Of a stretch of DNA of 64,000 nucleotides, positions 3,475 to 53,677 are shown piece after piece. The first letter of the stretch is position 1, and the number at the start of each line of letters is the position of its first letter. The notes beneath the pieces are model-generated. The model was not told the origin of the DNA. It was given only the letters and a program-made list of their open reading frames with translations, and searched no databases. Origin of the DNA: Rosa chinensis. Its lineage: Eukaryota > Streptophyta > Magnoliopsida > Rosales > Rosaceae. The stretch spans positions 69,601,823 to 69,665,822 of the forward strand of contig NC_037092.1 in assembly GCF_002994745.2 (NCBI RefSeq), given 5' to 3'. The translations under genes were made by a program, and so were the position numbers.

Positions 3475-4620
3475 CTATGTTTGCCCCCCAATCTCAGGAA
3501 CAGCTGGATCCGGTGGGTCTTCAAATTCCCAAACACTGGGGTAATATTTCTTGAGGAACCTGCCGTTAATGGGGTTGCGGTGGAGGTCGCCGTCCAAATC
3601 TTTGAGCTGAAAAGCCCCACGTTCTAGAATTCGGTGAATAACAAAAGGTCCTTCCCAGCGAGGAGTCCATTTACCGCGGCCAGTCAACTTTTCGCCAAAC
3701 GGCAGGACTGCTTTCCACACGATCTCACCTTCCTTGTAACTGTGACCACGCGTCCTTTTATTGTAGGCGCGAGTGATCTGCTGCATTTCCATGACCAAGG
3801 AGTCCAAAGCCTCTAAGCGCTTCCTACTAAGGTCTTCATGTTCTTGCCACATAGCCTGGACATAATCTTCACCAATCAGATGCTGTTGATCTTGGACGCA
3901 CAGAGATTGAACATTGATCTCCAAATTAAAGGGAGAACCGCATCGTGGCCGTACATTAATGCATAAGGGGTGGTGGCCGTAGGAAGTACGATAAGCCCAT
4001 AACGTCTCATACAATGTGTCATGCCACTGGCGAGGGTTCTCCACGAGCAGTTTTTTTTCAACAGAGTAATGATGATCTTGTTACTAGCCTCCGCTTGACC
4101 ATTAGATTGGGCATAATAAGGCGTGCTATGGATAAATTGGATGCCAAAATCATTGACAAGCTTCTTGACATCACCACCCATGAACGCTGCCCCCCTGTTA
4201 GACACTAAAACCTCTGGAATGCCAAACCTGCAAATAATATTGCGAAAGATGAATTGGCGAATAGTGGCACCGGAAGCCTCTTTCAAAGGCTCGGCTTCCA
4301 CCCACTTAGTGAAGAAATCGGTAGCAACGATGATGAACTTGTGCTGGAGTGAAGAATGCAGATGAATCATGCCGATCAAGTCCAAAGCCCAACCTCGCGT
4401 AGGCCACGGTTTATTGATGGGCTGCATGGGAATATTAGGAATGTGCTGGATTGGTCCATGTGCCTGTCAATCTTGGCATCCTTTCGCGAATGCGATACAG
4501 TCCTTCAAAATACGGGGCCAATAATAACCATGTCTCCTGATAAGCCAGCGCATCTTTAGACCCGCTTGATGAGCGCCACACACACCTTCATGTACTTCTC
4601 GCATTAATCGTTTCGCTTTG
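3475..4620 (-). pseudogene. Retrotransposon integrase (broken)
   Basis: The minus-strand reading starts in an N-terminal HHCC-like zinc region (about 4470-4620), then a core with ALDLIG (first Asp), VSNRGAAF and YYAQSNGQAEASNK (the Glu). A C-terminal chromatin-distal part holds GRGKWTPRWEGPF, the usual GPF-type motif after Ty3 integrase. Two overlapping frames (3876-4427 and 3475-4044) show a frameshift near 4.0 kb, and a stop at about 4465 separates it from the RNase H part. The second catalytic Asp position reads Asn. This enzyme would have joined cDNA to the chromosome; this copy cannot. Confidence 0.85.
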
Positions 4621-5957
4621 CGGCCATAGACACATCTGAAATCGATGCCATCTTCACCGCGTCGATGTAGCTCTTCGCCTCTGAGGAAGTAATTTAAAGG
4701 AAGGAAACGGATATTCCTGTCTGCAATGGGGTCTGGATGTTTGAGGTAATCTATCAAAGGGATGCGCCAATCTACGTCAATAGGCTCTAGGACAGCGACG
4801 ACCGGCTCATCAGGAGGGTCAGGTAGCACAAGCCACGAAGGTAGCGTGCGTCGCTCAACCTTCGAAATGCGCTCGCGAACCCTATATTTCAATGTACTTC
4901 CTGTGGCCAATTGGGCGAGTTCATTGGACGCGAAATTGCGCTCGCGAAGGATGTGCTCCAAACCCACGTCATCATATTGGTCTAGGAGTTCAACGACGCG
5001 ATTCAAATATGGTACGAGCAAGCAGCTTACACACCTATACTTCTCTTGAAGTTGGTTGATCACGAGCAAAGATTGACCACGTACCTGAACATCTCTCACT
5101 CCCAGCTCCAATAATACCTCTAGGCCGATAATGAGGGCCTCATACTCTGCTTGGTTATTGGTGCACTTAAACTCCAATTGGAAAGAATATGAAAAACGAT
5201 AGCCTGCTGGGTTTTCCAGAACCACCCCTGCCCCCGATAGGGTTTCTGTGCATGAGCCATCAAAAAACAATACCCAGGGTTGGAGGGAGACTATGGCTTG
5301 ATACCATAAAACATATTCTGGAATGCGCGCCAAATCTGGTTGAATGGTGGTGGTCGCTATCTCTAACTCTTTCGTGGCGGGGACATCCACTATAGGGTGA
5401 TGTGCGAGGAAGTCTGCGATAGCCTGTCCCTTTACTGCTTTCTGTGTAACGTATTGTAGTGAGAATTCGGATAACGCAAGCACCCACTTGCCAATGAGAC
5501 CTCTCAGAATAGGTCGCGACAGCATGTATTTAACCAAGTCTGTTTGAGCAATGATGCAAGTAGTAAAGGACAACATGTAGTGCCGTAACTTGCATGCTAA
5601 GAAATATAGTGTAAGACACAGCTTCTCCATTGGAGTATACCTTGTTTCGCAATCTGTAAGTATCCTACTGAGGTAAAAGATGGCATGTTCGATGCCTTCC
5701 TCGTCATCTTGAGCAAGTAGGCTTCCATTGGAAGCCTCAGCTGCTGAAATATACAGCTTCAATACGAATCCAGCTCTAGGTGGAACAAGCACTGGCGGGC
5801 TCGCTAAATAGGACTTAATTTTGTCAAAAGCCTCTTGATGTTTAGGTTCCCATATAAACTCGTTATGTCCCTGCAGATTCAGCAGTGGGGAAAAGGACTG
5901 GATTTTACCTGCAGAGTTAGAGATGAAACGTCTCAAAAAATTGGTCTTACCTAGCAA
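4467..5957 (-). pseudogene. Tandem RNase H domains (gypsy-type then archaeal-type) of Tat pol
   Basis: One open stretch of 496 codons. The first part is the RT connection and ordinary RNase H (YISAAEASNGSLLAQ, TRYTPMEKLCLTL). The second begins LFFDGSCTETLSGAGVVL and continues with NNQAEYEALIIGLEVLLELG, the archaeal-type RNase H seen in Tat elements. The position where this fold normally has the third acidic residue (G-D-S) reads GQS. The C-terminal end runs into the integrase zinc-binding region (VHEGVCGAHQAG, then RHGYYWP). It is the longest intact stretch of pol in this copy. Confidence 0.88.
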
Positions 5958-6967
5958 TCGCTGTAGTTCCTTCTTTGTTCACGGGGGAGACGCGTTGATG
6001 ACTGCACTGGCCTTGTCCTCAGGGACCTCAATTCCTCTCTGGTGGACTATAAATCCTAGAAAGTCACCAGCCTGAACTCCGAAAACACATTTGGCGGGGT
6101 TCATTTGAGCTTTTGTTGCAGCATTCTCTTGAAAACCTTTCTGAGATCTACGATATGGTCTCCTCTCTTCTTAGACTTCATGACCACGTCATCGATATGA
6201 ACCTCCAAAATCTTCCCCAATACTTCATGGAAGATTAGGTTCATGGCTCTCTGATATGTTGCCCTGCGTTCTTCAGTCCAAAAGGCATGACCACATATTC
6301 AAAAACACCCGCGAAGCCTGGGCAATGTAACGCAGTCTTGTGTCTATCTTCTTCCGTGACCGGAATTTGGTGATACCCTGCAGTTTCGTCCATGAAGGAC
6401 AACAGTTCATGTCCCGCTACTGTGTCTACCAGCATATTCGCAACCAACATGGGGTAGACGTCTTTAGGCGTAGCGACATTAAGGTCTCTGTAGTCCACGC
6501 AGACCTCATCTTGCCTTCTTCTTGCGAACTGGCACTATGTTGGATAGCCACTGATTGTATTTGGCTACCCTGATGATGCCTGACTTGTGCATCTTTTCGA
6601 CTTCCTCTTTGACCAGGACGTGGGTCTCAGAGTTAATTCTTCGCGGCTCTTGCTTCACAGGCCTCTTGTCAGGGAGTGTGGGCAGCTGATGGCATATCAA
6701 ATCTGGTGACAGGCCTGGCATGTCTTCATATTTCTCAGCAAAGCAGTGTCTGAATTCCAATAATAAGTCAATGAGCCTCTGTTTTTCGCTAGGCTCTAAA
6801 TAGGCGCTAATAGCCACCTCCATAGGCTCATATACTGTTCCAAGATTGACCTTCTCGGTAGGGTCCCTGACCTTAGGAGGAGTATCATCCAACGCTGCCG
6901 GAGCCAGCTGAATCTCATCGTCGTCTTCTTGTTCTTGGTCAGAGAACTCCTCATTGACAATTTCCAA
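5958..6967 (-). pseudogene. Reverse transcriptase (fragmented)
   Basis: Minus-strand pieces: 6506-6967 carries the pre-RT segment (RRINSETHVLVKEEVEKM, SNIVPVRKK). 6241-6498 carries DYRDLNVATPKDVYPM and the YVVMPFGLKNAG palm motif. The catalytic motif around 6190-6200 reads HIDDVV, where the family has Y-x-D-D. Frameshifts near 6506 and 6245 and a stop near 5980 interrupt it. Both aspartates of the active site are retained, but the preceding aromatic residue is His. Confidence 0.85.
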
Positions 6968-21086: not shown

Positions 21087-24000
21087 TAGGACTGGGCGTT
21101 TGAGGCCGAAAACCCAAGGGACCGATCCGGAAACCCGAGAAACCAACAAATCGGGTCGGGCTTTGTAGTCATTTTTTACGGTCCGGGTTAAGACCGAACC
21201 GAAACCTATGAGAACGGGCCAATCTCAGTTTCTAATATTTCTACCCTCGAGTAACCCAAACCGGCCCAACTATAACACCCTCTATACGTGTCAGTCTTTC
21301 ATTGGTCATTAGTTAGTCCCAAACCTAAGTCTAAACACGACCTCAGTCAGTTTCGACCTCATTTCTTCAGTTCTTCGCAGAGTCAAATCCTTAGCACCCA
21401 AAGCCCCAAACTACTCTTCCCTGATTTCTTCCCTGATTTCATGATTTTCTTCCTTCGACTGAGTGTTTGTTTGATTCCCTCTTCTCTCTTGTGGTTTCGA
21501 TTCCCTCTCCAATCTGATTCTGTCTCCATTTTCTTCAATTCTTCCCCAAAATCTGCCAAGCATGCATGGCCTCACCTGATACAACAGCAAAGTCAGCAAC
21601 AAGCATGGCTTCCAGGGGGGGAATTCTATAGTTCCGGCAAGTTCAACAGTGGAAGCAAGTCAGTCCAATTCGGCAAGTTCAACAGCTCAACCACATGTTG
21701 ACCCGAAAGAGAAAGGGAAGAGGAAGAAGGGTAACAAGCCTGGAAAGTTTTGATTCGATGTTTGGGTACACTTTGACAAGATTGAGAAGCCTGTGTTTGA
21801 AACAATTGATGGGAAGATGCAGCAAGTTTGAACTGTCACTCTTGCCCAATGTAAGTATTGTTCAACCGATTTGGCTTGTGATCCATATGAAAATGGGACT
21901 AGTTCTCTTAGGAGACATATTCAAGATGTCTGTAAGAAGTATCCGGGTAAGGCTGACATAGAGAAAGGGCAGACACTATTGGGTGGTGATGGGAGTGTAA
22001 GTGTCAGTGGTGAACCTAGTCTAGCTGTTAAACTGTGGTCGCAAGATCGGTGTAGGATAGCTCCAGTTGAGATGATTGTGATGGATGAATTTCCATTTAG
22101 CGCAATTGAAAGGAAGGGTTTTAGGCATTTTTGTTCAGTGGCTGTCCTAAAGTGGGAGATTCCATCTAGGAGAACAATAGTGAAATTGTTTTTGAAGATG
22201 TATGATGCAAAAAAGGTGGAGCTGAGGAAGGAATTGCATAGTCATAGTGTGTGTTTAACCACTGATACATGGACATCAGTGCAAAACATAAACTACATAG
22301 TGCTAACTGCACATTTTATAGATTATGGAAGGAAGATGCACAAGAGAATTCTCAACTTTTGTGTAATTAGTAATCATTCAGGCAATAGCATAGGGAAGCT
22401 TATTGAATCATGCTTGATTCAATGGGGTATTGAGAGCGTTTTGACAATTAGTGTCGATAATGTTGCGGCTAATAAGCATGCAATTGAATATGTGAGGAAG
22501 AAAATGGTGGATTGGTCGAAGAAGCCAGTTTTAGGAGGGAAGTTTCTACATGTGAGGTGTTTGGCTCACATCCTCAATCTCATTGTGAGATCAGGACTCA
22601 CAATGTTAGATAGGTCAGTGGGTTCGATTAGGAAGGCAGTCAAGTATGTTCGAAGTAGTTCATCGAGGCTTAAGGTGTTCAAGAAGTGTGTTGAGAAAGA
22701 GAAGTTGGAATCCAAGAAAATATGTGTTTTAGATGTCCCAACTAGGTTGAATTCAACATTTATTATGTTGGAGACTGCCAGCTTAGAGTTGAAGAAAGCC
22801 TTTTATAGGATGGCTGACGAAGAGGACAGCAAGTACGAGAACTATTTTGATGAACCTGAACCTGAACTTGAAGAAAATGATGGGGAGCTTGAAGATGGTT
22901 TTGTAGTTGTCGACCCGAAGACCAAAAAGAGGATTGGACCACCAAATGAACATGATTGGGAGAAAGCTGGAATATTTGTGCAGTTCTTAAAGGTCTTCTA
23001 TGAGGTAACCTTGAAGGTTAGTGCATCAAACAAGCCTACCTCACATCGAGCATTCCATGACATTGTAAGCATTCAAGTTGAAATAGAGGACTTGTTTGAT
23101 AGAGATGAAGAAGATTTTGAGCATGAAGCACACAGAACCCTGTATCAGATGGCTGTGAAGATGAAAGCCAAGTTTACGAAGTACTTTGCCAAGCTGGAGG
23201 ACATGAACCAGCTTCTTTTGGTTGCTCTCGTGCTGGATCCTAGGTATAAGCTTAGGAATTTTGGCAGTACTTGTCAGGATATGCTTGGATATGATGGTTC
23301 ACAAGTTAAGAAGGCATCGAAGGAACTGAAGGAGTTAGTTGTGCAGCTTATTGACCTGTATGCATCTTCAAATGGACCTCATAAAGGTCAAACAAGTTCA
23401 GGGAGTGGCATTACTAGTGGAAAGACTGGAAGCAACAGCTCTAGTACAAGGATGTTGAGTGGCAAGAGGGTTGACATGTTGAAGAAATGGAAAACCGAGT
23501 TGAGGGAATCAGGAGAGGTGGTTGTGCAACATGAAGTGGACAAATATTATCTTGATCCAATCAAAGATCCACTTGAAGAAGAGGATTGAGACATTTTGAT
23601 GTGGTGGAGGCTTAATGGAGTGAAGTACCCAAATCTGCAACTTGTGGCCAGAGATGTGCTTACTGTCCAAGTTAGTACAGTGGCCTCTGAAAGTGTCTAT
23701 AGTACTGGAGGTAGGGTAATTGATCCCTATAGAAGTTCAATGACTCCAAGAACTGTGGAAGCCCTAATATGCATGCAAAATTGGATCAATGCTACCAGCA
23801 TATCTGAGATCGAGTACTTTCCAACTACCGAAGAGTTTGAATTCTATGAAAAAATGGAAAAAGGTGGGTGATTGTTTCAAAGTTTCAGTACATTACTTGT
23901 AAAGTTAAATTTTTTTTGCCTCCATTAAAGTGAACTAATTGTGATATAATTTTGGTGCAGAACATCAACTTGAGGATTCTGACTCAAGTGAAAAGGCTCG

Positions 24001-34814: not shown

Positions 34815-34825
34815 CTCCCCCTCAA
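34815..34825 (-). promoter_or_regulatory. Polypurine tract
   Basis: Minus strand TTGAGGGGGAG lies immediately before the 3' LTR. It is the expected plus-strand primer for copia reverse transcription. Confidence 0.8.
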
Positions 34826-37800
34826 GTTGGCGCATATACATCAACCATGCCCAACTTGCTTAGTGAGTCATAAAACGCCTTCCCGGAAACTCCTTTGGTA
34901 AGTACATCTGCAAGTTGCTCTTCAGTTTGAACAAAAGGAAAGCTAATAATGTTGGCATCTAGCTTCTCCTTTATAAAGTGACGATCAACCTCCACATGCT
35001 TAGTATGATCATGTTGTACTGGATTCTGTGATATGTCAATAGCTGCCTTGTTGTCACAATACAACTGCATGGTATTTTTGAGTTTGAAACCCAGATCACG
35101 TAACAGATTTCTCAGCCACAACAATTCACACACTCCATGAGCCATACCTCTATACACGGCCTCAGCACTAGAACGTGCAACAACTTTCTGTTTCTTACCC
35201 TTCCATGTAACCAAATTACCTCCCACAAAGGTAAAGTAACCTGATGTCGACCTCCTGTCTGTGATATTTCCAGCCCAATCTGCATCTGTTAAGCCACAAA
35301 CCTCAAGAATGTTGTTGTGTTTAGAAAACAATACTCCCCTTCCTGGAGCTGACTTCAAGTACTTCAGAATTCGCATAACAGCATCCATGTGACTCTCACT
35401 CGGATTATGCATGAACTGACTCACCACACTCACTGCATATGCAACATCTGGTCTAGTATGAGCCAAATAAATCAAGCACCCAACTAACCTCTGATAGCGA
35501 GCTCGATCAGTAGGTACCTGATCTGGATACTCAGCTAAACAATGGTTCTGCTCAATAAGAGTATCAATAGGTCTGCAATCCAACAAACCTGCCTCTGTCA
35601 GCAAGTCAAGAACATACTTCCTCTGGCACATATAGATTCCTTCTCTCCCCCTGGCTACCTCAATTCCTAAGAAGTACTTAAGCTCACCCAAGTCCTTTAT
35701 CTCAAACTTAGAGGCTAGCTGTCTCTGCAGTCTATCCATCTCAACAGTATCGTTACCAGTGATTACCATATCGTCCACATAAATAATTAGAGCTGTTACC
35801 TTCCCTTGTTGATGCTTGAGAAACAAGGTATGGTCTGAGTTGCTCTGCCTGTAACCAACCTTCCGCATGAATTGTGAAAATCTTCCAAACCAAGCACGAG
35901 GTGACTGTTTGAGACCTTACAGAGATTTTCTCAATTTGCATACAAAATCACCAGGAGAAGCAACTACATATCCCGGTGGAAGGCTCATGTACACTTCCTC
36001 GGCTAATTCTCCATGAAGAAATGCATTCTTGACATCAAACTGTCGGAGTGGCCAGTTTAAACTAGTAGTGAACGAGAGCAGAACCCGAATAGTATTCATC
36101 TTGGCAACAGGAGCAAAAGTTTCATCATAGTCTATACCATACGTCTGAGTAAACCCCTTTGCTACAAGGCGTGCTTTGTATCGATTCATTGATCCATCTG
36201 CATTATGCTTCACGGTAAACGCCCAACGACAAGCTACAGCCTTCTTGCCTTGTGGTGGAGGCACAAGTTGCCAAGTATTGTTCTTCTGCAACGCCTCCAT
36301 CTCTTCATCCATAGCCTTCCTCCACTTTGGATCCCTCAATGCATCCTGCACTTTGTTAGGTACTGATACAGCAGATATTTGATTCACAAATGATTCATAT
36401 GACTTAGACAACCTCTTAGTGGACATATAGTTTGCTACTGGGTATTTTGATTTGGCAGTAAGAGTAGGTTCATATCTTTTGGCTGATTGACCTTGAGTGG
36501 TCCTATGTGGTAACACATATTGCTCAACATTAGACTCACTACTACTAGTATCAGTGGATGGACATACCTCAAAAGGGTGATCTTCAGTACCAGGAAGCTG
36601 TGGGTCAGGGGTAGAAGCGATGGCAGGAGGGGCAATTGTGTCTTCCACCTCATTCTGAGTGATGGAAACTAGTGCTTGGGTGTCTGGAGCCTCTTCTGCT
36701 GGAGGCGGCGAGCTAATAGTCTCAACCGGATCCGTCAAAATACCTTATGGCTGTGTGGCTTCTCCTTCTATTTCTGATTCCTCCCCCTCTGCATGATATA
36801 GCTCTTCAAAATATGAATTCTCCCCCTGAAGAGCTGTATCTGAAGAGGAGAAATAACTCATGTCTTCAAAGAAAGTAACATCCATAGTGACATAATACTT
36901 TCTGGTTGGTGGATGATAGCACTTGTACCCCTTCTGATAGCCTCCGTAGCCAACAAACACACACTTAAGGGCCCGGGCATCCAACTTAGATCTCTGGTTT
37001 TTGGGCACATGAACAAAAGCAACACAACCAAAAACACGAGCTGGAAGATTATGAAATGATTGTAAGGAGACATAAAAGGCGAGAACCTCAAATGGAATTT
37101 TTTCCTGGAGGACACTAGATGGAAGATGATTGATAAGATGAGAGGAAGCATGTATAGCATCGCCCCAAAGATACTTAGGCATATGAGCACTAAAAAGAAG
37201 GGCACGAGCCATATCAAGTAAATGACGGTTTTTTCTTTCGGACACTCCATTCTGTTCTGGTGTTTGCGGACACGTGGTTTGGTGAACAATCCCATGAGTT
37301 TTAAAAAACTCTTGGAACACATGGTTAACATACTCCCCCCCATTGTCAGAACGAAAGACTTTAATGGTGCTATGATATTGTGTTTGAACAAGATTACGAA
37401 ATGTTTGAAAAGCAGGGAAGACTTCATCTTTGGTTTTAAGAAGAGCAACCCATGACAATCTCGTACAATCATCAATAAACAACACAAAATATCTCATACC
37501 CGATACAGTGGGCTCTCTAGAAGGTCCCCAAACATCAGAATGAATCAACTCAAAAGGAATAACACTTTTATTAGAAACACTAGGAGAATAAGTAGCACGA
37601 TGACTCTTGGCCAAAACACATGTTTCACAATGTAAAACTAACTCATCCACACCAATAAACAGAGTAGGCATGGTTTTTTTCATAAGACTAAAAGATGGAT
37701 GCCCTAAACGGCGATGCCACAACCAAATTTCACTTAACTTATCAGAATTAGAAGTCAAAGCGGCTCGAGACTGTGCTCCTGGTTTCTCTTCTGCGTATGT

Positions 37801-39213
37801 CGGATCCAGATGGAATAACCTGCCCCTCAGATACCCCCGACCGACTATCTCCCTGGTGAGAAGATCCTGAAAAATCACATACATTGGATAAAAGGTTACA
37901 GAGCATTTAGACTCAGTGTTCAACTGTGGGACAGATATCAAGTGATGAGATAAGTCAGGCACATATAACACATTATGAAGTTCTAAAGTGGGAGTAATAC
38001 GCACTGACCCTGACCCTAACACAGGAAAAGCCTCACCATTGGCATTGGTTACATAGGACACTGGTGGGGAAGACAACTCAATAAAATATGATTTGTCATA
38101 AGTCATATGATCGGAGGCACCAGAATCAATAATCCATGTATCAGAACCAACAAAGTTAGAAACCTTTAAAGCCATACCAATTTTACCTCGACCAGCTATA
38201 GAGGCTGTAGGAGTAGCTCCACCTGCTGTATGATGATCTTGGCCAACCACTCCATAGAAATCTGGTTCTTGGACCAAGTGAACAGCAGCTGCTTTCGCCT
38301 TAGGACGATAACCTTGCTTTTTAGGTTTCAGGTGTGGGTTCAACTTCCAACAAGTCTCCCAAACATGCCCAAGGTCATTGCAATAAGAACATTGAGGACG
38401 AGGGCGGTTGATGAAGCCTTGTGGGAAACCTTGCTGATGAAGTGGGGCTGAACTCTACTACTGAAGGAAAGGTGCCGGTGACTTGGCCTGAATGGCTAGG
38501 CTAGATACTTCAACCTGTGCATGTTTAACACTTTCCTGCTGAGACTCATCCTTGCGGATGTATGTAAAAGCTGTGTTCAAACTAGGAGGGTCTGTCATTC
38601 TGAGCAATTCTCCCTTAGCACTACTATGCTTCTCATCAAGTCCTCTCAAGAACACATGAACCCTTTCTAGCTCCTTCTCCTTCTGGTACCACACAAGATC
38701 TTCCTGATTCTTGATCTTGCAAGGACGCTTCTGATCAATTTCAGCCCATACATTATTCAGCTTAGTGAAATACACAGCTACTAGTTGCCCATTCTGTTGC
38801 ATATTAGTAGCTTTGCACATCAATTCATGAACCTGTATAAAATCAGACTCATTTGTATAGAGATCTCCCAACATCTTCCATATCGCCTCAGCAGTTTCAC
38901 ACTCCTCCACCATCTGTAGCACATCATCAGTCATGGCTCGAAATAGAATTGACATTACAAACCCATCATCATCTTCCCACTTAGCATAGGCCTCCACATC
39001 ATCTTCACTAGGAGCCTTCATTGTTCCAGTCACATGCCCCATTTTGTGTATCCCACGGAGATAAACAGACATAATCTTCTTCCATGTTCGGAAATTAGCA
39101 CCAGTGAGTTTGGTACCCCCAAAAGAACCTCCTTCTGAGCTCTTGACAGAGACTTCAACCCTCTGGACCTCATTGGTCTTAGAACTCTGACATTCACTGT
39201 CATCACCACCCAT
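34822..39213 (-). pseudogene. Copia gag-pol polyprotein with four in-frame stops
   Basis: The likely start is Met at 39213 (MGGDDSECQ). Order: gag (LTGANFRTWKK), zinc knuckle CSYCNDLGHVWETC, protease DSGASDHM, integrase with LGHPS, HSDVWGPS, SDNGGEYV and QNGVSERKNRH, then RT (QFDVKNAFLHGEL, YVDDMVITGND) and RNase H (DADWAGN, LYCDNKAAIDI). Two adjacent TAG codons (38455-38460) separate gag from the knuckle. TAA codons lie at 36745-36747 and 35917-35919. No frameshift was found. It would encode all replication functions of the element, but this copy is inactive as it stands. Confidence 0.93.
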
Positions 39214-39808
39214 TGCAATAATACAATAGAAAATACACAAATCCCAAAGTGCGCAGCGGAAATAAGAATAACAGATGTCTCCAAACAAAATCAAACAAAT
39301 AGTAACAATTTTTTTTTTGAACCTGTTTGACTAAGCTGAATGGGTTGACCGAGTTTAGACGAGTTGACTCACTGAAGAGATCGAGATCGATCTTGAATTG
39401 GCTGAGGATGACGAGTGGGGCGACCTGACCGGAGATGGAAGCAATCAGACTGGAGGCGTGCAACCGGTATGAACTAGCAGCGACCGTCGGAAAACTGGGC
39501 CGTAGCAGAGAGTGGCTGAACTGTGAACTGGGCTATGGGCTGCAACGAACTGGCCTGTGGGCTGGTCTGAGACGAGTGACAGCGGTCTGGAACTGAATAC
39601 AAAGACGAAGCCGATCGAAGATGAGAGACGGCGGTCTTGGACTGAAGACCAAGCCGATCGAAGATGAAGAACGACGTCTACTATTACCAATAGTAGAGAA
39701 CGATGTCGTTTAACCCAAATAACTGGGTTTTAAGCAAACTGTCTTCCTCGGATTGAGAGAAGAATAAAAGGAAAAAAAAAAAAAAGACAAAGTCCTTTTC
39801 GGATCTTT

Positions 39809-43698: not shown

Positions 43699-45592
43699 GA
43701 GTTAATTACATATAAGTGCATCTTGGAATGTTTTTTTAGCCATAAGGCCACCAACTAATTTTTTCCCTCATAAGGCCACTAGATTTAAAATGGTGTTATA
43801 TTTTGGATATAAAAACCAACATATTTACATAAATGCCACTAGAGTAAAAAGTCAACAACCATCCTCTCTCTTCTCTCCGGCGAGGTCTCCGGTCAACTCC
43901 GGCCGACCTCCGGTGGGTTTCCGGCAGACCTCGATCCAACTTCCGGCGACTACAAAAGCTACAGTCATCAACACCAAAAGCTACTGTCGCTAGCAACAAA
44001 AGCTACTCTGATGAGATTTCCGGCAATCTCTGGCGAGGTCACAAAAGCTACTATCACTAGCAATAAAAGCTACTGTTACTAGCAACAAAAGCTACGCTGG
44101 TGAGATTTCCGGCGAGGTCACAAAAGCTACTATCACTAGCAATAAAAGCGACTGTTACTAGCAACAAAAGCGACTGTTACTAGCAACAAAAGCTACGCTG
44201 GTGAGATTTCCGGCGAGGTCACAAAAGCTACTATCACTAGCAACAAAAGCTATTGTCACCAATAAAAGATGCGCTCCAAAAAATCAAAAGCCACTAACAC
44301 CATTAACAAAAGATACTGTCACCGACACAAAAAGATACTCTCACCAGCAACAAATGGCTACTGTCACCATCACCAATAACAAAAGCTATTGTCACCAATC
44401 AAAATGAAAATAGAAAAGCTACTGACATCAGCTTGAAAAGATACTAATATAGGTACAGAAAGCTACAATCGCTATGATGGAAAACCACTATAATAGTTAC
44501 AAAGAGGTACTGATTTGAAAACAAAAGCTATTGACATTAGCTTGAAAAGATACTAACATAGACACATAAAGCTATTATCACTATATTGAAAAGCCACTAG
44601 AACAATTACACAGAGCTATCAAATTGAATGACAAATATCAACAAATGAGTTTCTAACTTTTCCAAAAATTGTAACAATACATAATTCCAGGTTTTGAACA
44701 GGTGTAAAATTTCCAGATCCAAGCAATTGAAAAATTACGATTGCATTGAGCACTCAGATTTTACCAATCTCATTACCGGAAAAAAGTCAAAGGAAACCAT
44801 GCTCCAGCTCGACCCGAACCAATCTGAAATTTTACCAATCTCATTACCGGATTCTCAGCCACCAGATCTCAAAAGCATCGGCAGATTCTCAGCCACCAGA
44901 TCTCATGACGAGGCTGAGCCCAGGAGTCGAGTGGTTTCAAAAGCATCGAGTGCTTCAGATCTCAGCCGCTTGCCGGAGAAGGACAGCTTCGAATTTGAGC
45001 TCCTGGCCGTTGGGCTCGATGATCGGAAGCTTGAGGTTCTTTATCTTCTTGTGCTGTCGCTTGGCAGTGGAGGGATCTCCGCAGATGACCCCGACTCTCA
45101 GAACTCTATAATTCTCCTTCTCCTTCTCCTCTCCCTCGATCTCCATCCTCCACCACCGCAGCGGCGTGGAACTCCGACGCCGCGCCACCGATCGACAAAG
45201 CATGACTTCTGAGGCTCAGATTCACAACTGAATGCGACAGAGGTCATCAGGAAATGATCGGCGAGGAGAAATAAGGAGTGAGTGAGGTGGAGTGGTAAAG
45301 AGCATCGCCAAATTTAAGTTATCGTTCCAAATCGGCGACGCCGGAGAGAATTGAGCGACGACGGCGACGAGAGGCGCGAAGCAAGAGGGAGAAAGCATTC
45401 TCAGAGAAAACCGAGAAAATCGGGAAAGGGAGAGAGATAGATCTGATATGATATGATACCGAGGGCAAATTGGGCATAGCATAAAAAAAGCTGACTTGTT
45501 TTAGCCCTAAAGTGGCCTTATGAAAACAAAAAATATTAAGTGGCCTTCTGAATAATTAAAGTTTCAAAAATACACTTGAGTGTAATTTTCTA
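43699..45592. mobile_element. MULE nested in a MULE, 1894 bp
   Basis: Imperfect inverted ends (GAGTTAATTACATATAAGTG vs inverted AGAAAATTACACTCAAGTG) extend to the AAGGCCAC motifs. A perfect 9-bp duplication AAGAATTTA flanks it (43690-43698, 45593-45601). It contains tandem-repeated DNA (about 43.97-44.4 kb) and a 172-codon ORF (44694-45212) plus an opposite-strand ORF (44955-45203), which could be captured exonic DNA. I do not recognise a product. Confidence 0.8.
43960..44420 (+). repeat. Degenerate tandem repeat (AAAAGCTAC motif, about 100-bp higher order)
   Basis: Short units of the type ACAAAAGCTACT are repeated many times. A larger unit beginning CTGGTGAGATTTCCGGCGAGG recurs at 44096 and 44197. 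Not CRISPR: units are irregular and without spacers. Confidence 0.75.
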
Positions 45593-47014: not shown

Positions 47015-47599
47015 CACTACTACAAAAATCGAAACACACAACAGAATAGAAATCTGTTGTTGTGTGTTAACACTAACTCTGTCAGACAACGGTACAATTC
47101 TATTTCTGTTGTGTGAATGTAAGCAAATTGAAAGGAAAAAAATAGGAAGATATTGCACAACTGAGTTAAGACGTTTTTGTTGTGTAAATGGGAAGCTAAT
47201 TTCCCTCCATTCCGAGCTCATAATTCCCTCCATTCCGAGCTCATAATTCCCTCTCAGAACAAGCTCACCAATATGGAATTTGAACTCTACAAACAACAGT
47301 CTTTTCTTATCTGTTGTATGATTGAATGTTGTATGAAGTTTGAAAAATCCTACTAGGTGTACCTTGTGCAAGATGCACAACTTTATACAACAGATTATTA
47401 TAGATCTGTTATCTGATCATGGAACTTGGTTGCAAAGCATGGCAAAGTTTCACCTAAATCAAACATATGTAGGCATAGGCGGCAACTGTCCCTCCCCTTG
47501 TTTGTCCAAATTTTTACGTATATACATTCATACAACAGATTCTTAAGTATACGTTGTCTGACAGACTTTAAAAAAAAAGGGTCACTAGCTTGCCCACGA

Positions 47600-47960
47600 C
47601 CACATTTCAATAAACTTTTCTTTGTCTTCCTCGACTCTCTTTCTCGCCCTCTCTCTCAATACTCTCTTATCTCTTCCACTCTATCCTTTCCCTCACACCT
47701 TCGCCACCTTCCTCTCTAGTAAGATGTCATCGCTTGGCAAGCCTTCTCTCACCGCCTCCTCCGCTCCTAGATACGCCTACCCCAACTTCCTTGCTAACCT
47801 GCACGCAATTGCATGCACCCCTCGCCGCCCTGTCGAAGCAAACCACCACCACCTCTCCATGGGAGCATGTGTCGAAGCCTCGCAAGCTGTTACTGGAGAT
47901 GCAGGTCCTTGTCAGTGTGGGTAAGTGAGAGAGAGCAGCGAAAGAAAAACAATGACTAAA
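47600..47960 (+). pseudogene. Possible first-exon-like captured fragment, unidentified
   Basis: CT-rich leader and then an ORF starting MSSLGKPSLTASSAPRYA, with Ser/Pro/Thr-rich composition. Codon-like GC content stands out from the AT-rich CACTA body. No domain was recognised. It could be a captured 5' exon. Confidence 0.3.
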
Positions 47961-49221
47961 GAACACAACCCTCATCGTCATGCCGAAGTAGGCCACCACC
48001 ACCGCCAGCCAATTCCACCCAACCGCCTAGCCCCCGCCTAAAACCATTCCAATTTCCACTGCTCCCAAAACCTAGGGTTTCGATTTTTTGAATCTCCCAA
48101 ATTTTCAAATTAGGGCTCTTAATTTTTCACCTGAAATGCATAAATGGAAGCTTCAGCAGAATCTATCTCACAACTTGTGCTTCATATTCCACTTTATCAA
48201 GGCTTTAATCCAACCCTATGCGATTATCAATCATTATTTCAATTTGGCAGTGGATCTATTACTGGAATCGATTCTATTTGATTTGTGGTTTTTGTGTTTT
48301 GATATGATGTTTTGATGTGATGTTGTTGTTGTTGAGCTTAGATTTGTGTTCGTTCCATTTTGATCTAGGCCCTGCAAAGTAGACTTTGGGATTTTGGGGT
48401 TTTCAGTAAGACGACGCAATCTCTCACTAGCTCTCTCTCTCTCTACAATTGTGCATATATGGCATGACTGCTCAGACCCAAGAATAGCTCCTTGCCGCCC
48501 ATCTCAAATAGCAAACCATCGATGTAAGCTTTAACTCTCTGTCAAGGTACTTTTTAGTGTAGAAATCAAGTAATTGTTAATCAAAGTTTTAAGACTTGTA
48601 GGTGGGTATTGTAAATGTTAACATGTGTTAAGATTGCAAAGATTGCAATCTTAACATTTACTTGAAGCTTTTGATATATCAAAGTTTGATAAAACAATTA
48701 TTAGATGGGTATCAAAGATTGCAATGATTGCAAATGTTAAGAATTATTCTTTTGAATTGAGTAGGTATGTCTTGTTTCAAATCAGATATGTGAGTTGATG
48801 TTGCCATGGTGCTACCTGATTTGCATTATCTAGCAATGACATTTCATTCTGGCAACAACTCCATGAATTAGGTTTGTTTGCATTTGCTTCTTGTTTTGGT
48901 TTTCTTAGCAAGTTCAGTTCTTTATAGTAGATTGTTCTATGGAGCCTAAACCCTAAGAAAAGTATAATCTGATTAATTATAATTTGGTTGTGTAGTTTTA
49001 CTGCTAGTGATGGAAAGATGAGGCTAAGGGCGTTGTTCAACTCACATCTAAGTTCTTATGCTATCTCTGGGAGTATTCAGAACCTGGGCCTCATTTGTCT
49101 TCTTGATTACACTTTTAATGACATTCCAAACATGCCCGATTAGTGATCACTTCTCTATCTCTTGGTTTATTTCTTCTGAAGTATTGGGTTTCAAATGTTA
49201 AAGTTGATAATTATTGCTTAG

Positions 49222-51215
49222 TGGTCTGCTAAAGGAAGTTGACTGTTCGCAGCTTGCAAACTATTTGAAAGATCTTGGAGTGAAAAAGGGTGATGCTTGT
49301 TGCGGTTTACTTACCCATGTTAATGGAACTTCCAATCACAATACTTGCATGTGCTTACATTGGTGCTGTTCACTCGGTATGTAATGGTCTTACTCTTTGC
49401 TCTCCAACATCCATAGCTTTTTCATTTCTATAAAAAAAAAAATTTCATTCTTTGGGGTTGTATTTGCTGGATTTTCTGTTGAATCTCATGCTCAAAGAGT
49501 AGTAGATTGCAATCTGAAAGTTGTGATCACTTGCAATGCTGTTAAAAGGGGTTCTAAGGTCATCCACCACAAGGATATAGTTGTTGCTGCCCTTATTGAA
49601 TCAACCAAAAGTGGGGTTTGTGTAGGTGTGGACTGAATTCTTTCCATGTCATATTGAATAATTTGTATTTGATGTTTAGGTCCCAATGGAGTTTAGGTTT
49701 CTGTTTGATCATCTATTGGCAGGATAGGCTTCTAGGTTTGGATTTGACGCAATCTGGAACCTACATTATTTGCCAAAGTTGTGTGCCTAGATACAGTAAC
49801 CAACCATGAGAGAATACCAAATTACTCTTCTATACTATATTTTCTAAAACCAATGATTAATTTTTGTTGAGAATATACACATCCCACATGGGAAAAATGG
49901 GACCTTGCCTATGGGTTTATAAGGGTTTGGACCACTCCATCCATTGCTAATTGGTTTTGGATGTGAACCCCAGATTACTTTATCATGGTATCAAAGCCAG
50001 GTTATCCACGTGTGCATGCCTCATGGCCACACGGACTCCAAGTCACCCAAAGTTGTCCACATGTATGGCTTGAAAATTCGCCACACGTGCGGGGGCGTGT
50101 TGAGAATATACACATCCCACATGGGAAAAATGAGACCTTGCCTATGGGTTTATAAGGGTTTGGGCCACTCCATCCATTGCCAATTGGTTTTGGATGTGAA
50201 CCCTAGATTACTTTATCATGTTGAGATTATAGATCCCACATGGGAAAAATGGGACCTTGCCTATGAGTTTATAAGGGTTTGGGTCACTTCATTCATTGCC
50301 AATTGGTTTTGGATGTGAATCCCAGATTACTTTATCATGGTATCAGAGCCAAGTTTCTCACGTGTGCATGCCTAACGGCCACATGGGCTCCTCGTCACCC
50401 AAAAGTTGTCCACTTGTATGGCTTGAAAATTTGCCACACGTGCGGGGGCGTGTTGAGATTATAGATCCTACATGGGAAAAATGGGACATTGCCTATGAGT
50501 TTATAAGGGTTTGGGCCACTCCATCCATTGCCAATTGGTTTTGGATGTGAACCCCATATTACTTTATCAATTTTCTCATATTTACTAACCAAATAGATAT
50601 ATTTTATGATAGGAATCTGATTGATATATGATTTCTTGTTTGAGCAGATGTATGCTTAACTTATGAGAATGAATCTGCTTTGAAGAGGGAAGTACTAATT
50701 GGGAAGAAGGATGAGACATATGGTGGCTGGTTAGTAGTAGTACAAACTCCTCTTTCTATAGGCTTTCATGAAAAAAGAAACATTTTTTTTTCTTTTCTCT
50801 TTCAAATTCATACTGCATTGTTTATTCTTTCTTTATTAGTGTTTTTATCAAATGGTTATAGGTGACTTGAACATTTACTTTACGGATTGGTGTTGACTGA
50901 TGACTCGTAATTATATTCCAGGATGGCATACCTAAATATCCAACTACTTGTGCAGTGGAGTGGGTTGATGCAGAGGATCCACTTTTTGTGCTCTATATCA
51001 GTGGGAGCATTGGGAAGCCCTAGGTATATTTGTTCCGTACTTCAATTTCAATTTTTTTTTCTTCTTCTTTTGGATTTTTCTAATTTTAATCTTATTAGCG
51101 AGTTATGCACACAACTGGGGATATATGGTGCAGCTGCTACAACATTTAAATATGCTTTTGATTACAAACCATCCGACATCTACTGGTACCCTTCACAACC
51201 AGAGGCTTATTATTA
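49222..51215 (+). pseudogene. Captured acetyl-CoA synthetase fragment, five exons with introns
   Basis: Exon pieces: 49222-49376 (SQLANYLKDLGVKKGD, then after a frameshift YLPMLMELPITILACA), about 49458-49625 (VVFAGFSVESHAQRVV, TCNAVKRGSKVIH), 50648-50729 (VCLTYENESALKRE), 50922-51023 ([27 protein letters not shown]) and about 51101-51215 (ATTFKYAFDYKPSDIYW). This order and content match AMP-forming acetyl-CoA synthetase, which makes acetyl-CoA from acetate. The AMP-binding motif is altered (TSGSTGKPKG in the family), a stop follows KP, and the acceptor before exon 2 lacks AG. Introns are retained, so the copy came from genomic DNA. Confidence 0.88.
49865..50569 (+). mobile_element. TRIM retrotransposon head-to-tail dimer
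   Basis: Four LTR copies: 49865-49985 and 50098-50218 (type A, 121 bp, starting TGTTGAGAATATACAC), then 50219-50337 and 50451-50569 (type B, 119 bp, starting TGTTGAGATTATAGATC). Each pair encloses about 112 bp beginning with the initiator-Met primer site TGGTATCA(A/G)AGCC and ending with GTGCGGGGGCG. Type A's second LTR abuts type B's first with no base between. One 5-bp duplication ATTTT (49860-49864, 50570-50574) flanks the whole. It lies in the intron between the second and third acetyl-CoA synthetase exons. Confidence 0.93.
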
Positions 51216-51410
51216 ATTTGTTAATTTGACTTTTTCATGTTAAACTACATAGCAGAGATCAATGGAAACTTTGATTAATTGGATTGAACTGAGAGCCAAG
51301 CATTTGATGAACTATTAGGTAGTAATCTTGTGCTAATATTTGTTATTCAATCTAATGTTTATCATGCTTAATAGTTTGTTTTCATTTGATTCTGTAATAA
51401 TAAATTGCAG

Positions 51411-51606
51411 GTGGAATTGAAACTCTAGCAATCACAAAAGTCTTTGGGGAATTTAGGTGAGTTATTTTACTTTCAGTATCACTAGTGTCCATAATCTGAA
51501 ATGTTTCTTTGAGTATCACTGTTGACTATTGCTTGTATTAAACATAAACACAAATTTCAGGTCTGGGAAAACACAGCTTGCACACACACTCTGCGTAACC
51601 ACACAG
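51411..51606 (+). pseudogene. Captured DMC1/RAD51-family recombinase fragment, two exons
   Basis: Exon 51411-51456 (GIETLAITKVFGEFR) and exon 51561-51606 (SGKTQLAHTLCVTTQ) are joined by a GT-AG intron that splits the Arg codon. Together they give the Walker A region GEFRSGKTQ, characteristic of the meiotic recombinase DMC1 and its RAD51 relatives. Both ends have proper splice sites (GCAG before, GT after). Flanking exons are absent. It encodes only the ATP-binding loop, so it is not functional alone. Confidence 0.85.
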
Positions 51607-52479
51607 GTTTGTCTCTCTCCTTGTTTGCATACTGGAAATCACACCATCATTGTGCAAAATTATGTTGTGGTCTTTCACTAAAAGTCTGGCATTTGAGTAG
51701 TGAATGTTCAGTTTACATTGACTGTGATTTTCAGTCTTCTTACATATTATTCAGTTTGATTAACGGAGAATTATACACCATTAAGAAGCATGTTACTGAA
51801 AAAGTGATAATTGTGGGTTATAGACTGCTGCAGTGCCATGCCAAGTAAAGTTGAATGCCAATACTGCTTTTACAACTGTGCATCCCATATCTGGTCTTTC
51901 TCAAATAATAAACTAGCAGATACCTAAGATTTCCATACTTGAACATGCTCTTAGTTACATTTGATATGCACAATCTTTTTGTCAAATTAAATTAACTTGG
52001 CTCTTTGATGCAGCAAATACATCTAGTCGATGGAGACAATTGCTGTAGTTCAATCAGCAACAAAAACTACTGCTGTATCCTCTTGCACTCCGTGTTTTTG
52101 TTTGCTAGTTTGGAAGAATGTGATAGCTATCATTATTTTCTTTGAAATTGAGAACTCCCCTTGTTTTCTTACTAGAGTTTTATACAAGTTAGATTTGTTA
52201 AGTTTGGGTATTGATTTTGGTGGTCCAGTTTTCACTTTATTACTCATTAGCTTTGTTGCATGTGCTGGTACCATAGTTTTTCTTTTGGTTGATTGCACTC
52301 CAGGTTTCTTTTCTTTTTTGAAGATTGGACTTTGATTTTTTCTTGTTGGTTTTACTTTGGCTTATTTAGAATCTGTTAAAGATTTTGAAGTGTTAACTAA
52401 TTGGTTAAGTTTGGTGTCTGATGACATGAGTTGTGGAGTTATTTGACATTGCCACAAAGAAAGTCTCTTAGTTCCTAAT

Positions 52480-52725
52480 ATGCGTTGTGACATTGCCAAG
52501 CTTCTTGAGATTGGCCAGGAAGCTACAGCTCGGATTCGGGTAATTTCTCTTTTTTCATTGGGGTTACTTTACTTGCACAATATCGAGAACAAGTTCTTAG
52601 TTTTTGGTTAGTAATTATTTGGTATATGTATTTTAGGTAGAGCATGTTATTAGAGAAGAGAATATGATGGCAGCTTAGGAGATCATCGGGCTATTTGCTG
52701 AGCTTATTTCTATTCGCATATTGAG
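52480..52725 (+). pseudogene. Captured IST1-like (ESCRT-III regulator) fragment, two exons
   Basis: Exon ending 52539 reads MRCDIAKLLEIGQEATARIR. After a GT-AG intron the exon 52637-52725 reads VEHVIREENMMAA, a TAG, then EIIGLFAELISIRI. This matches the conserved N-terminal helices of IST1-like proteins, which act with ESCRT-III at endosomes. The in-frame stop and lack of the remainder make it a pseudogene fragment. Its intron is kept. Confidence 0.8.
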
Positions 52726-53677
52726 GTTTGCTATTCTTCTGCTGATTACTTCTTCTAAATATATTGCAAAGAAACTGGGGCCTTGTGTGCAATGAAGGAA
52801 GTCTCCTTCCTGATGATCCTAGATCTGCAAAAAGTATAAAGCAATTAGAGCAGGTCCTTCCGGGTTTTATTGAAGCCAAAGGCAGCTGAAAGCTAAGAGC
52901 CATCGAGAATATGAATGATCTTGATTCATGTATAACTAGCTAGGAATGCTCTTGTCTGGTACATTATCTAATTACTTGAATGTATAGATGTTTGAATAAT
53001 AGTACTTGAATTATATGGATTATAGTACTGTTTATATCATAATATATCGAGCATTATTTCTGTGAATATTCTTGTTGTTGTCTAAGTTTCAGTCATGCAA
53101 CACAATACAAAACAATGTGTTGTATGACTGCAAAATAGTTCAAAATTAAGGCCTCTCCTACAACAGTTACTAGATGTTATCCAATTTGATTACAATATTC
53201 ACACCACAGTTAACCAAATATAGTTTGTTGTGTGAACTAAAAACCAACATCAGAAAACAATAAAATTACGTTGTGTGAGATTCATAACACACAACAGAAA
53301 TATAACTATCCCTGTTGTCTGAATGATTCAACAGACAACAAATACATAATTATAGCTGTTGTGTCTTATACATCTCAGACAACAAGAAAGATTTATAACT
53401 GTTGTGTGTTATGAACCTCAGACAACAGCTAATTTCTTCTTTTGATGTCTGAATGGCCATGTCAATGCCGATGCATCTCCGCGCATGCCATGTCAGGCAC
53501 ATGCCTGCGCAGAATTCGTACAACAGAATAATTATCTGTTGAGGAAATGGATATTGCACAACAGTGGAATCACCGTTGTGTGATTTTTCAATCACACAAC
53601 ACTCGTTTAGACCACAGCGAGGCTGGTCATCACACATTTCCAAATATCTGTCGTCTGATTAACTTATTGTAGTAGTG

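Follow-up and report, generated by a model that had tools for sequence, protein, structure and literature searches.

A Pack-CACTA-type element of Rosa chinensis that carries pieces of four host genes

A complete, non-autonomous CACTA element of 6,663 bp (nested TRIM-like insert counted in) lies in the window, i.e., the whole stretch of 64,000 nucleotides of the Rosa chinensis genome that was analysed (C5:69601823-69665822 of a 515-Mb assembly). Its cargo includes pieces of at least four host genes, those for replication protein A large subunit (RPA70), acetyl-CoA synthetase (ACS), DMC1 and an IST1-like protein, all on the plus strand and with introns kept, for which candidate donors with identities of ~84-90% were located on four chromosomes (C2, C4, C6 and C7). 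We propose, with a probability of roughly 0.92, that this element is a Pack-CACTA with transduplicated host gene pieces that was assembled stepwise. As in Pack-TYPE and Pack-CACTA elements, host gene DNA with donors elsewhere is present in more than one copy as a unit. An earlier note on this DNA had described a CACTA element with host gene pieces in one orientation, a description borne out by the target-site duplications, by the donor loci and by four more complete copies. The features of the element and the positions of the other complete copies are as follows.

47015..53677, plus strand: non-autonomous CACTA element, complete, with terminal inverted repeats (TIRs); both ends also bound four other complete copies
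47015..47560, plus strand: 5' end with terminal and subterminal repeats, motif density 20 per kb
47561..48834, plus strand: Y1, element body common to many loci; a group of genome matches stops at ~48805-48834
48938..49205, plus strand: RPA70 N-terminal-domain exon with flanking intron; Pfam Rep-A_N 5.4e-8, above cut-off
49242..51244, plus strand: ACS piece, 89-90% identity to the gene at C2:88.486 Mb
49253-49376, 49454-49625, 50648-50726, 50922-51023 and 51099-51185, plus strand: ACS exons
49865..50569, plus strand: TRIM-like element, two head-to-tail LTR-body-LTR units, interrupting the ACS piece
51245..51286, plus strand: short stretch (~41 bases) between ACS and DMC1, present in relative L017 and not in the ACS gene
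51287..51948, plus strand: DMC1 piece, 87.8% identity to DMC1 at C4:8.50 Mb
51287-51318 (partial), 51411-51457 and 51561-51605, plus strand: DMC1 exons, introns kept
51949..52479, plus strand: X, bridging sequence from DMC1 to IST1
52480..52717, plus strand: IST1-like piece, 84.6% identity to the IST1 gene at C6:33.41 Mb (L046)
52480-52538 and 52638-52717, plus strand: IST1-like partial exons, with an in-frame TAG
52858..53677, plus strand: native 3' region with subterminal repeats and terminus, motif density 23 per kb
C7:57.96 Mb: complete copy L009
C6:28.00 Mb: complete copy L010 (with L038 and L049)
C5:51.06 Mb: complete copy L011 with L012
C6:59.53 Mb: complete copy L013 with L014

The TIRs are 31 nt long and 77% complementary, with CACTACTACAAAAATCG starting at 47015 and TTGTAGTAGTG finishing at 53677. 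Subterminal motifs occur at 20 and 23 per kb in the 5' and 3' ends, respectively, with a single match in the 5.3-kb interior and a background of 0.61 per kb in the remaining window. An internal terminus was looked for in the 5.3-kb interior of the window copy and none was found. The genome search for other copies with the 47015 and 53677 termini, which the earlier note had suggested, returned at least four, so that five complete copies, the window copy included, have the identical chain between identical ends; those at C6:28.00, C5:51.06 and C6:59.53 Mb bear further inserts and total ~11-12.5 kb. Nested within the copy at C6:59.53 Mb (L013 5078 to L014 1647) is another stretch that has CACTA-type ends and is flanked by GCA on either side. 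The window copy is flanked by TTC/TTT, an imperfect target-site duplication, and the other complete copies by GCA/GCA (L009), TGT/CAA (L010, no duplication), TTA/TTA (L011/L012) and TGA/TGA (L013/L014); relatives with partial cargo are flanked by CAA/CAA (L022), AGA/AGA (L039 with L023) and AAT/AAT (L025). Perfect 3-bp duplications are thus found in six of the eight elements with both flanks read, a count that leaves out L015, L016, L017, L019, L026, L027, L028 and L050, each with fewer than two ends read. At the level of the family, CACTA...TAGTG TIRs, 3-bp duplications and subterminal repeats are all present.

No stop-to-stop frame of at least 150 aa, the only size considered, that could encode an own transposase was found inside the element. 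Elsewhere in the genome, Transposase_21 scored above cut-off at least 150 times (150 of 150 scored, out of 570 candidates found), and the element presumably moves by transposase from other CACTA elements. The 3' end has at least 100 genome matches (40 of 500 candidates scored), and the family of ends is therefore large. From the reading frames, no obvious host gene was detected in the flanks of the element, where one 175-aa frame has no family match. Other parts of the window contain an open 585-aa frame at 21832-23589 with a hAT-like RNase-H domain plus a BED finger just below the Pfam cut-off, minus-strand pieces of Copia-type gag-pol at 34822-39330, minus-strand RNase H and integrase zinc-binding domains at 4467-5978, and tandem repeat arrays of 22- to 109-bp units around ACAAAAGCTACTGTCAC at 43952-44635.

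The TRIM-like element has four LTRs of 119-121 bp and one 5-bp duplication, ATTTT, on both sides. LTR1 and LTR3 are followed by TGGTATCAAAGCC and TGGTATCAGAGCC, respectively, which we take to be the primer-binding site. The short LTRs, primer-binding site and 5-bp duplication of TRIM retroelements are thus all present at 49865-50569. This insert is confined to the window copy and is missing from the other four complete copies.

The earlier note had counted at least three host genes in the element, and its search for donor loci could be completed with candidates for all of ACS, DMC1, IST1 and a fourth gene that it had missed, RPA70. The RPA70 exon is 83.8% identical to L047 (C7:4.155 Mb), and its comparison with PDB gave nothing below 0.47. 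The five ACS exons were read correctly in the earlier note, with the homology starting at 49242 rather than 49222. One ACS exon matches ACS structures (E 7.3e-7); six ACS stretches were scanned in Pfam, of which three gave AMP-binding matches below cut-off (0.00031, 0.068 and 0.14) and three gave no match, so that these stretches rest on the alignment with the donor. The candidate donor, L018 at C2:88.486 Mb, has exons that align to residues 3-426 of the 432-residue query and is the only locus with such an exon run in the ACS search (67 of 67 candidates scored). The spliced DMC1 piece, which comprises three exon pieces and not the pair first reported, has its best PDB match in DMC1 (6.2e-14) with RAD51 behind. 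It is 87.8% identical to L020 (C4:8.50 Mb) and 85.9% identical to a second gene copy, L037 (C4:9.01 Mb). Several DMC1 gene-like copies are found within ~0.5 Mb at C4:8.50-9.01 Mb and elsewhere, and dispersed DMC1 fragments are plentiful, with at least 76 matches (100 of 140 candidates scored).

The IST1-like exon pair of the earlier note corresponds to two partial exons with matches of 2.4e-7 in PDB and 2.7e-13 in Pfam Ist1 (with X placed at the stop). L053 (C1:13.15 Mb), which lacks the stop, matches 52553-52831 at 88%, i.e., above the C6 gene L046, and may be the true IST1 source or an older copy of the element. Another part of IST1 (~residues 93-175) recurs at many loci on C1, C2, C4 and C6, several with similar stops, which suggests another IST1-carrying repeat. 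In or near the bridging sequence X, 51947-52074 matches C2:45.14 Mb (88%) and 52156-52337 matches C1:13.15 Mb (72%). X was initially read as a fifth captured gene; among the L051 frames compared with Pfam in the hunt for its source, no match fell below 0.17, and L052 was inspected only by eye. The plus-strand orientation and the kept introns hold for all the pieces, as the earlier note had stated. By chance alone, four pieces would share one orientation with a probability of 1 in 8, and the shared orientation is a weak sign of any rule.

Relatives of the element hold sub-sets of the cargo, i.e., RPA, DMC1 or IST1 without the rest, and their breakpoints are at or near the same places as those of the complete copies. 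The segment 47496-49215 has at least 43 matches in the genome (40 of 73 candidates scored) and is carried whole by L050 (C4:20.81 Mb) and at C5:25.76 Mb, neither of which is among the at least 56 matches listed in a broader search (40 of 1,310 candidates scored). In L050, an element with other cargo that also shares 52858-53338, the match to the window ends at 49242, where ACS starts, and L050 holds additional RPA70 exons. L017 has ACS up to 51285, directly before the DMC1 start of the complete copies, while the match to the ACS gene ends at 51244. The DMC1-bearing relatives have the same or nearly the same right edge (position 5136 of reversed L020; 5140 in L022 and L023) and different left edges (3530 in L019, 4262 in L015, 4461 in the window, and 4576 and 4586 in L022/L023), with L022 and L023 reaching 4 bp deeper into the DMC1 gene than the complete copies. 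The IST1-bearing L025-L028 share the sequence from 52331 onward, three of them to 53677 and L028 to 53427; L025 (C4:41.37 Mb) also has a stretch resembling PAM2 (Pfam 0.0041, under the cut-off). L016 (C2:60.59 Mb) was considered as an X plus IST1 precursor and dropped, being by eye a truncated copy inside a copia-like element.

Because the relatives carry sub-sets of the cargo, the chain is best read as a mosaic to which two or more element lineages contributed. At the 5' end, the K2P distance that separates L025 or L028 from the five complete copies is 0.19-0.22 (L022 and L023 excluded, with coverage under one half), and at the 3' end four complete copies (all but L010) are 0.04-0.065 from L025 or L027 and 0.075-0.10 from L026. 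With a 5' end far from, and a 3' end near to, the IST1-only elements, the complete copies are therefore hybrids. Among the complete copies, K2P is 0.031-0.045 for ACS, 0.025-0.038 for DMC1 and 0.022-0.058 for IST1. Between copies and donors it is 0.079-0.085 for ACS and 0.094-0.110 for IST1, and between copies and DMC1 genes 0.099-0.113 for three of the four gene loci and 0.115-0.132 for L024. Based on its lowest distance to the donor, ACS is probably the youngest capture among ACS, DMC1 and IST1, with differences that are small and an IST1 stretch of just 238 bp. The DMC1 tree sets L019, L015 and the complete copies apart with 100% support, whereas its split between the genes and L022 or L023 is not firm (support of branches near the genes ≤86%); support in the IST1 and ACS trees is mostly poor.

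All 10 aligned element copies have TAG at an IST1 codon that is CAG in the gene, and the ACS piece carries a frameshift. Variable sites among the five copies number 56 of 827 in exons and 114 of 1,364 in introns (Fisher p 0.19); by piece, p is 0.18 for ACS, 0.11 for DMC1 and 1.0 for IST1, where the DMC1 sites (4 of 124 in exons, 40 of 538 in introns, p 0.11) are too few to exclude weak constraint. Given the shared IST1 stop, the ACS frameshift and the lack of a significant exon-intron difference, the captured pieces, judged by these features, are not maintained as coding sequence.

Among public gene models of Rosa chinensis, P0017 and P0121 have their best match in the L010 copy on C6. Over residues 65-153, P0017 and L010 agree at 88 of 89 positions, and over 1-43 at 40 of 47 that could be aligned. 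The C-terminus of P0017, KPSDIYWWN, is exactly what a splice between the ACS exon end at 51185 and the DMC1 acceptor at 51411 would yield, with a stop two residues into DMC1 in the predicted frame. P0121 differs from P0017 in one additional intron that is removed. An exact string search locates the donor site in four of the five copies and the acceptor in all five. These database models would fit a chimeric transcript spliced from ACS to DMC1. The read-through that the earlier note had envisaged is thus supported in predicted and indirect form by P0017 and P0121, but P0122 of R. sericea, which has an ACS piece of the same kind, runs past the donor site without a DMC1 join. In R. rugosa, P0124 has an ACS piece joined to other sequence and P0125 (SNI1-like per its source) has other sequence joined to an IST1-like exon; these models look like further chimeras.

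The 5' end, Y1 and RPA derive from one element lineage and the 3' end and IST1 from another. We propose that pieces were added or swapped stepwise when elements recombined with host genes or with one another, or were repaired from them, presumably at breakpoints of little or no homology. Transcripts crossing the element could splice the exon of one gene to that of the next. Since the frames are broken, such RNA would most likely be non-coding or yield short junk peptides. The element may also act as a source for small-RNA silencing.

Several other explanations bear on this proposal. Two unrelated CACTA ends that flank a degenerate gene cluster by chance would fit the imperfect duplication of the window copy, but the same block with the same ends recurs at four further sites, and perfect duplications flank three of these. 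Those copies refute this reading, whose probability is negligible, and they answer the refuting test of the earlier note, i.e., whether both ends belong to one element. Gene models in R. chinensis (P0017 and P0121) and R. sericea (P0122) would be expected of a functional chimeric gene under selection; we regard such a gene as very unlikely and reject it on the broken frames (the shared IST1 stop and the ACS frame change) and the lack of a significant exon-intron difference, and the reading frame ends two residues into DMC1.

For the Pack-CACTA reading itself, template switching and tandem fusion are candidate routes of assembly. Interrupted gap repair, in which repair after excision jumps from one template to another, between an element and either an unlinked gene or a second element, with little homology, has about even odds in our estimate: the interior lacks remnants of termini, the edges of the pieces fall inside exons or introns, and the overlaps at the RPA-ACS and ACS-DMC1 junctions are a few bases at most, as judged by eye. 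However, terminus remnants could have gone by later deletions, and ~41 bases that are not from the ACS gene sit between ACS and DMC1. Tandem fusion, the Pack-TYPE route in which neighbours of one family are inserted in tandem, lose their inner ends and move as a block with the host DNA between outer ends, comes somewhat short of even odds. The model is described in the relevant passages of PMC8903248 and PMC13317346 and accords with complete copies that are hybrids of two lineages (by the 5' and 3' K2P distances of 0.19-0.22 and 0.04-0.065), although the 5.3-kb interior has one subterminal motif and no internal terminus, and the cut RPA cargo with ACS put in mid-cargo needs further deletions, which the published model allows. 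More speculative, and in our estimate improbable, is the proposal that the Rosa Pack-CACTA family is a cargo shuffler, in which modules are swapped at recurrent breakpoints by template switching among elements and genes and not by tandem fusion, and that small RNAs from its DMC1 and RPA70 pieces could dampen two meiotic recombination genes.

With precursors, candidate donors and mapped breakpoints in one genome, the capture of unlinked genes by DNA transposons becomes testable, and chimeric models that are transposon copies can be purged from rose gene catalogues. The process is already known in plants, and the rose element is a well-preserved case with unusually clear assembly traces; among the papers listed in literature searches, none deals with a Rosa CACTA element with these genes. 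Like Pack-MULEs and Helitrons, as far as the sections on them describe, the rose element holds captured host gene pieces. Pack-MULEs and Helitrons differ from CACTA elements in their ends, target-site duplication and transposition chemistry. Host gene capture and chimeric transcripts are described for both in the sections of PMC13317346 and PMC1947982 that deal with them. Pack-CACTA and other Pack-TYPE elements, as portrayed in the pertinent parts of PMC8903248, acquire genic DNA from several loci and can form by fusion of neighbouring elements, and the rose element resembles them in captured multi-locus DNA between its ends, nested sub-sets of cargo and a possible element fusion; unlike the published cases in those parts, it is from a rose genome, it shows internal truncation of cargo with replacement at the junctions, and no inner-end remnants were found in the window copy. 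Tgm-Express1, the soybean CACTA element of the wp allele, is 5.7 kb long and carries five unrelated gene fragments with chimeric splicing, and its chimeric transcripts, detected by RT-PCR, are driven from the promoter of the host gene, according to the relevant sections of PMC1947982. The chain of unrelated genes that the earlier note had called notable is so only in part, as those five fragments are likewise spliced together. On the same account, the rose element is like Tgm-Express1 in being a CACTA element of similar size with several unrelated host fragments and introns kept, whereas it differs in its genes and host, in chimeric splicing that is deduced from gene models of another copy, and in the several copies and partial-cargo relatives that were found.
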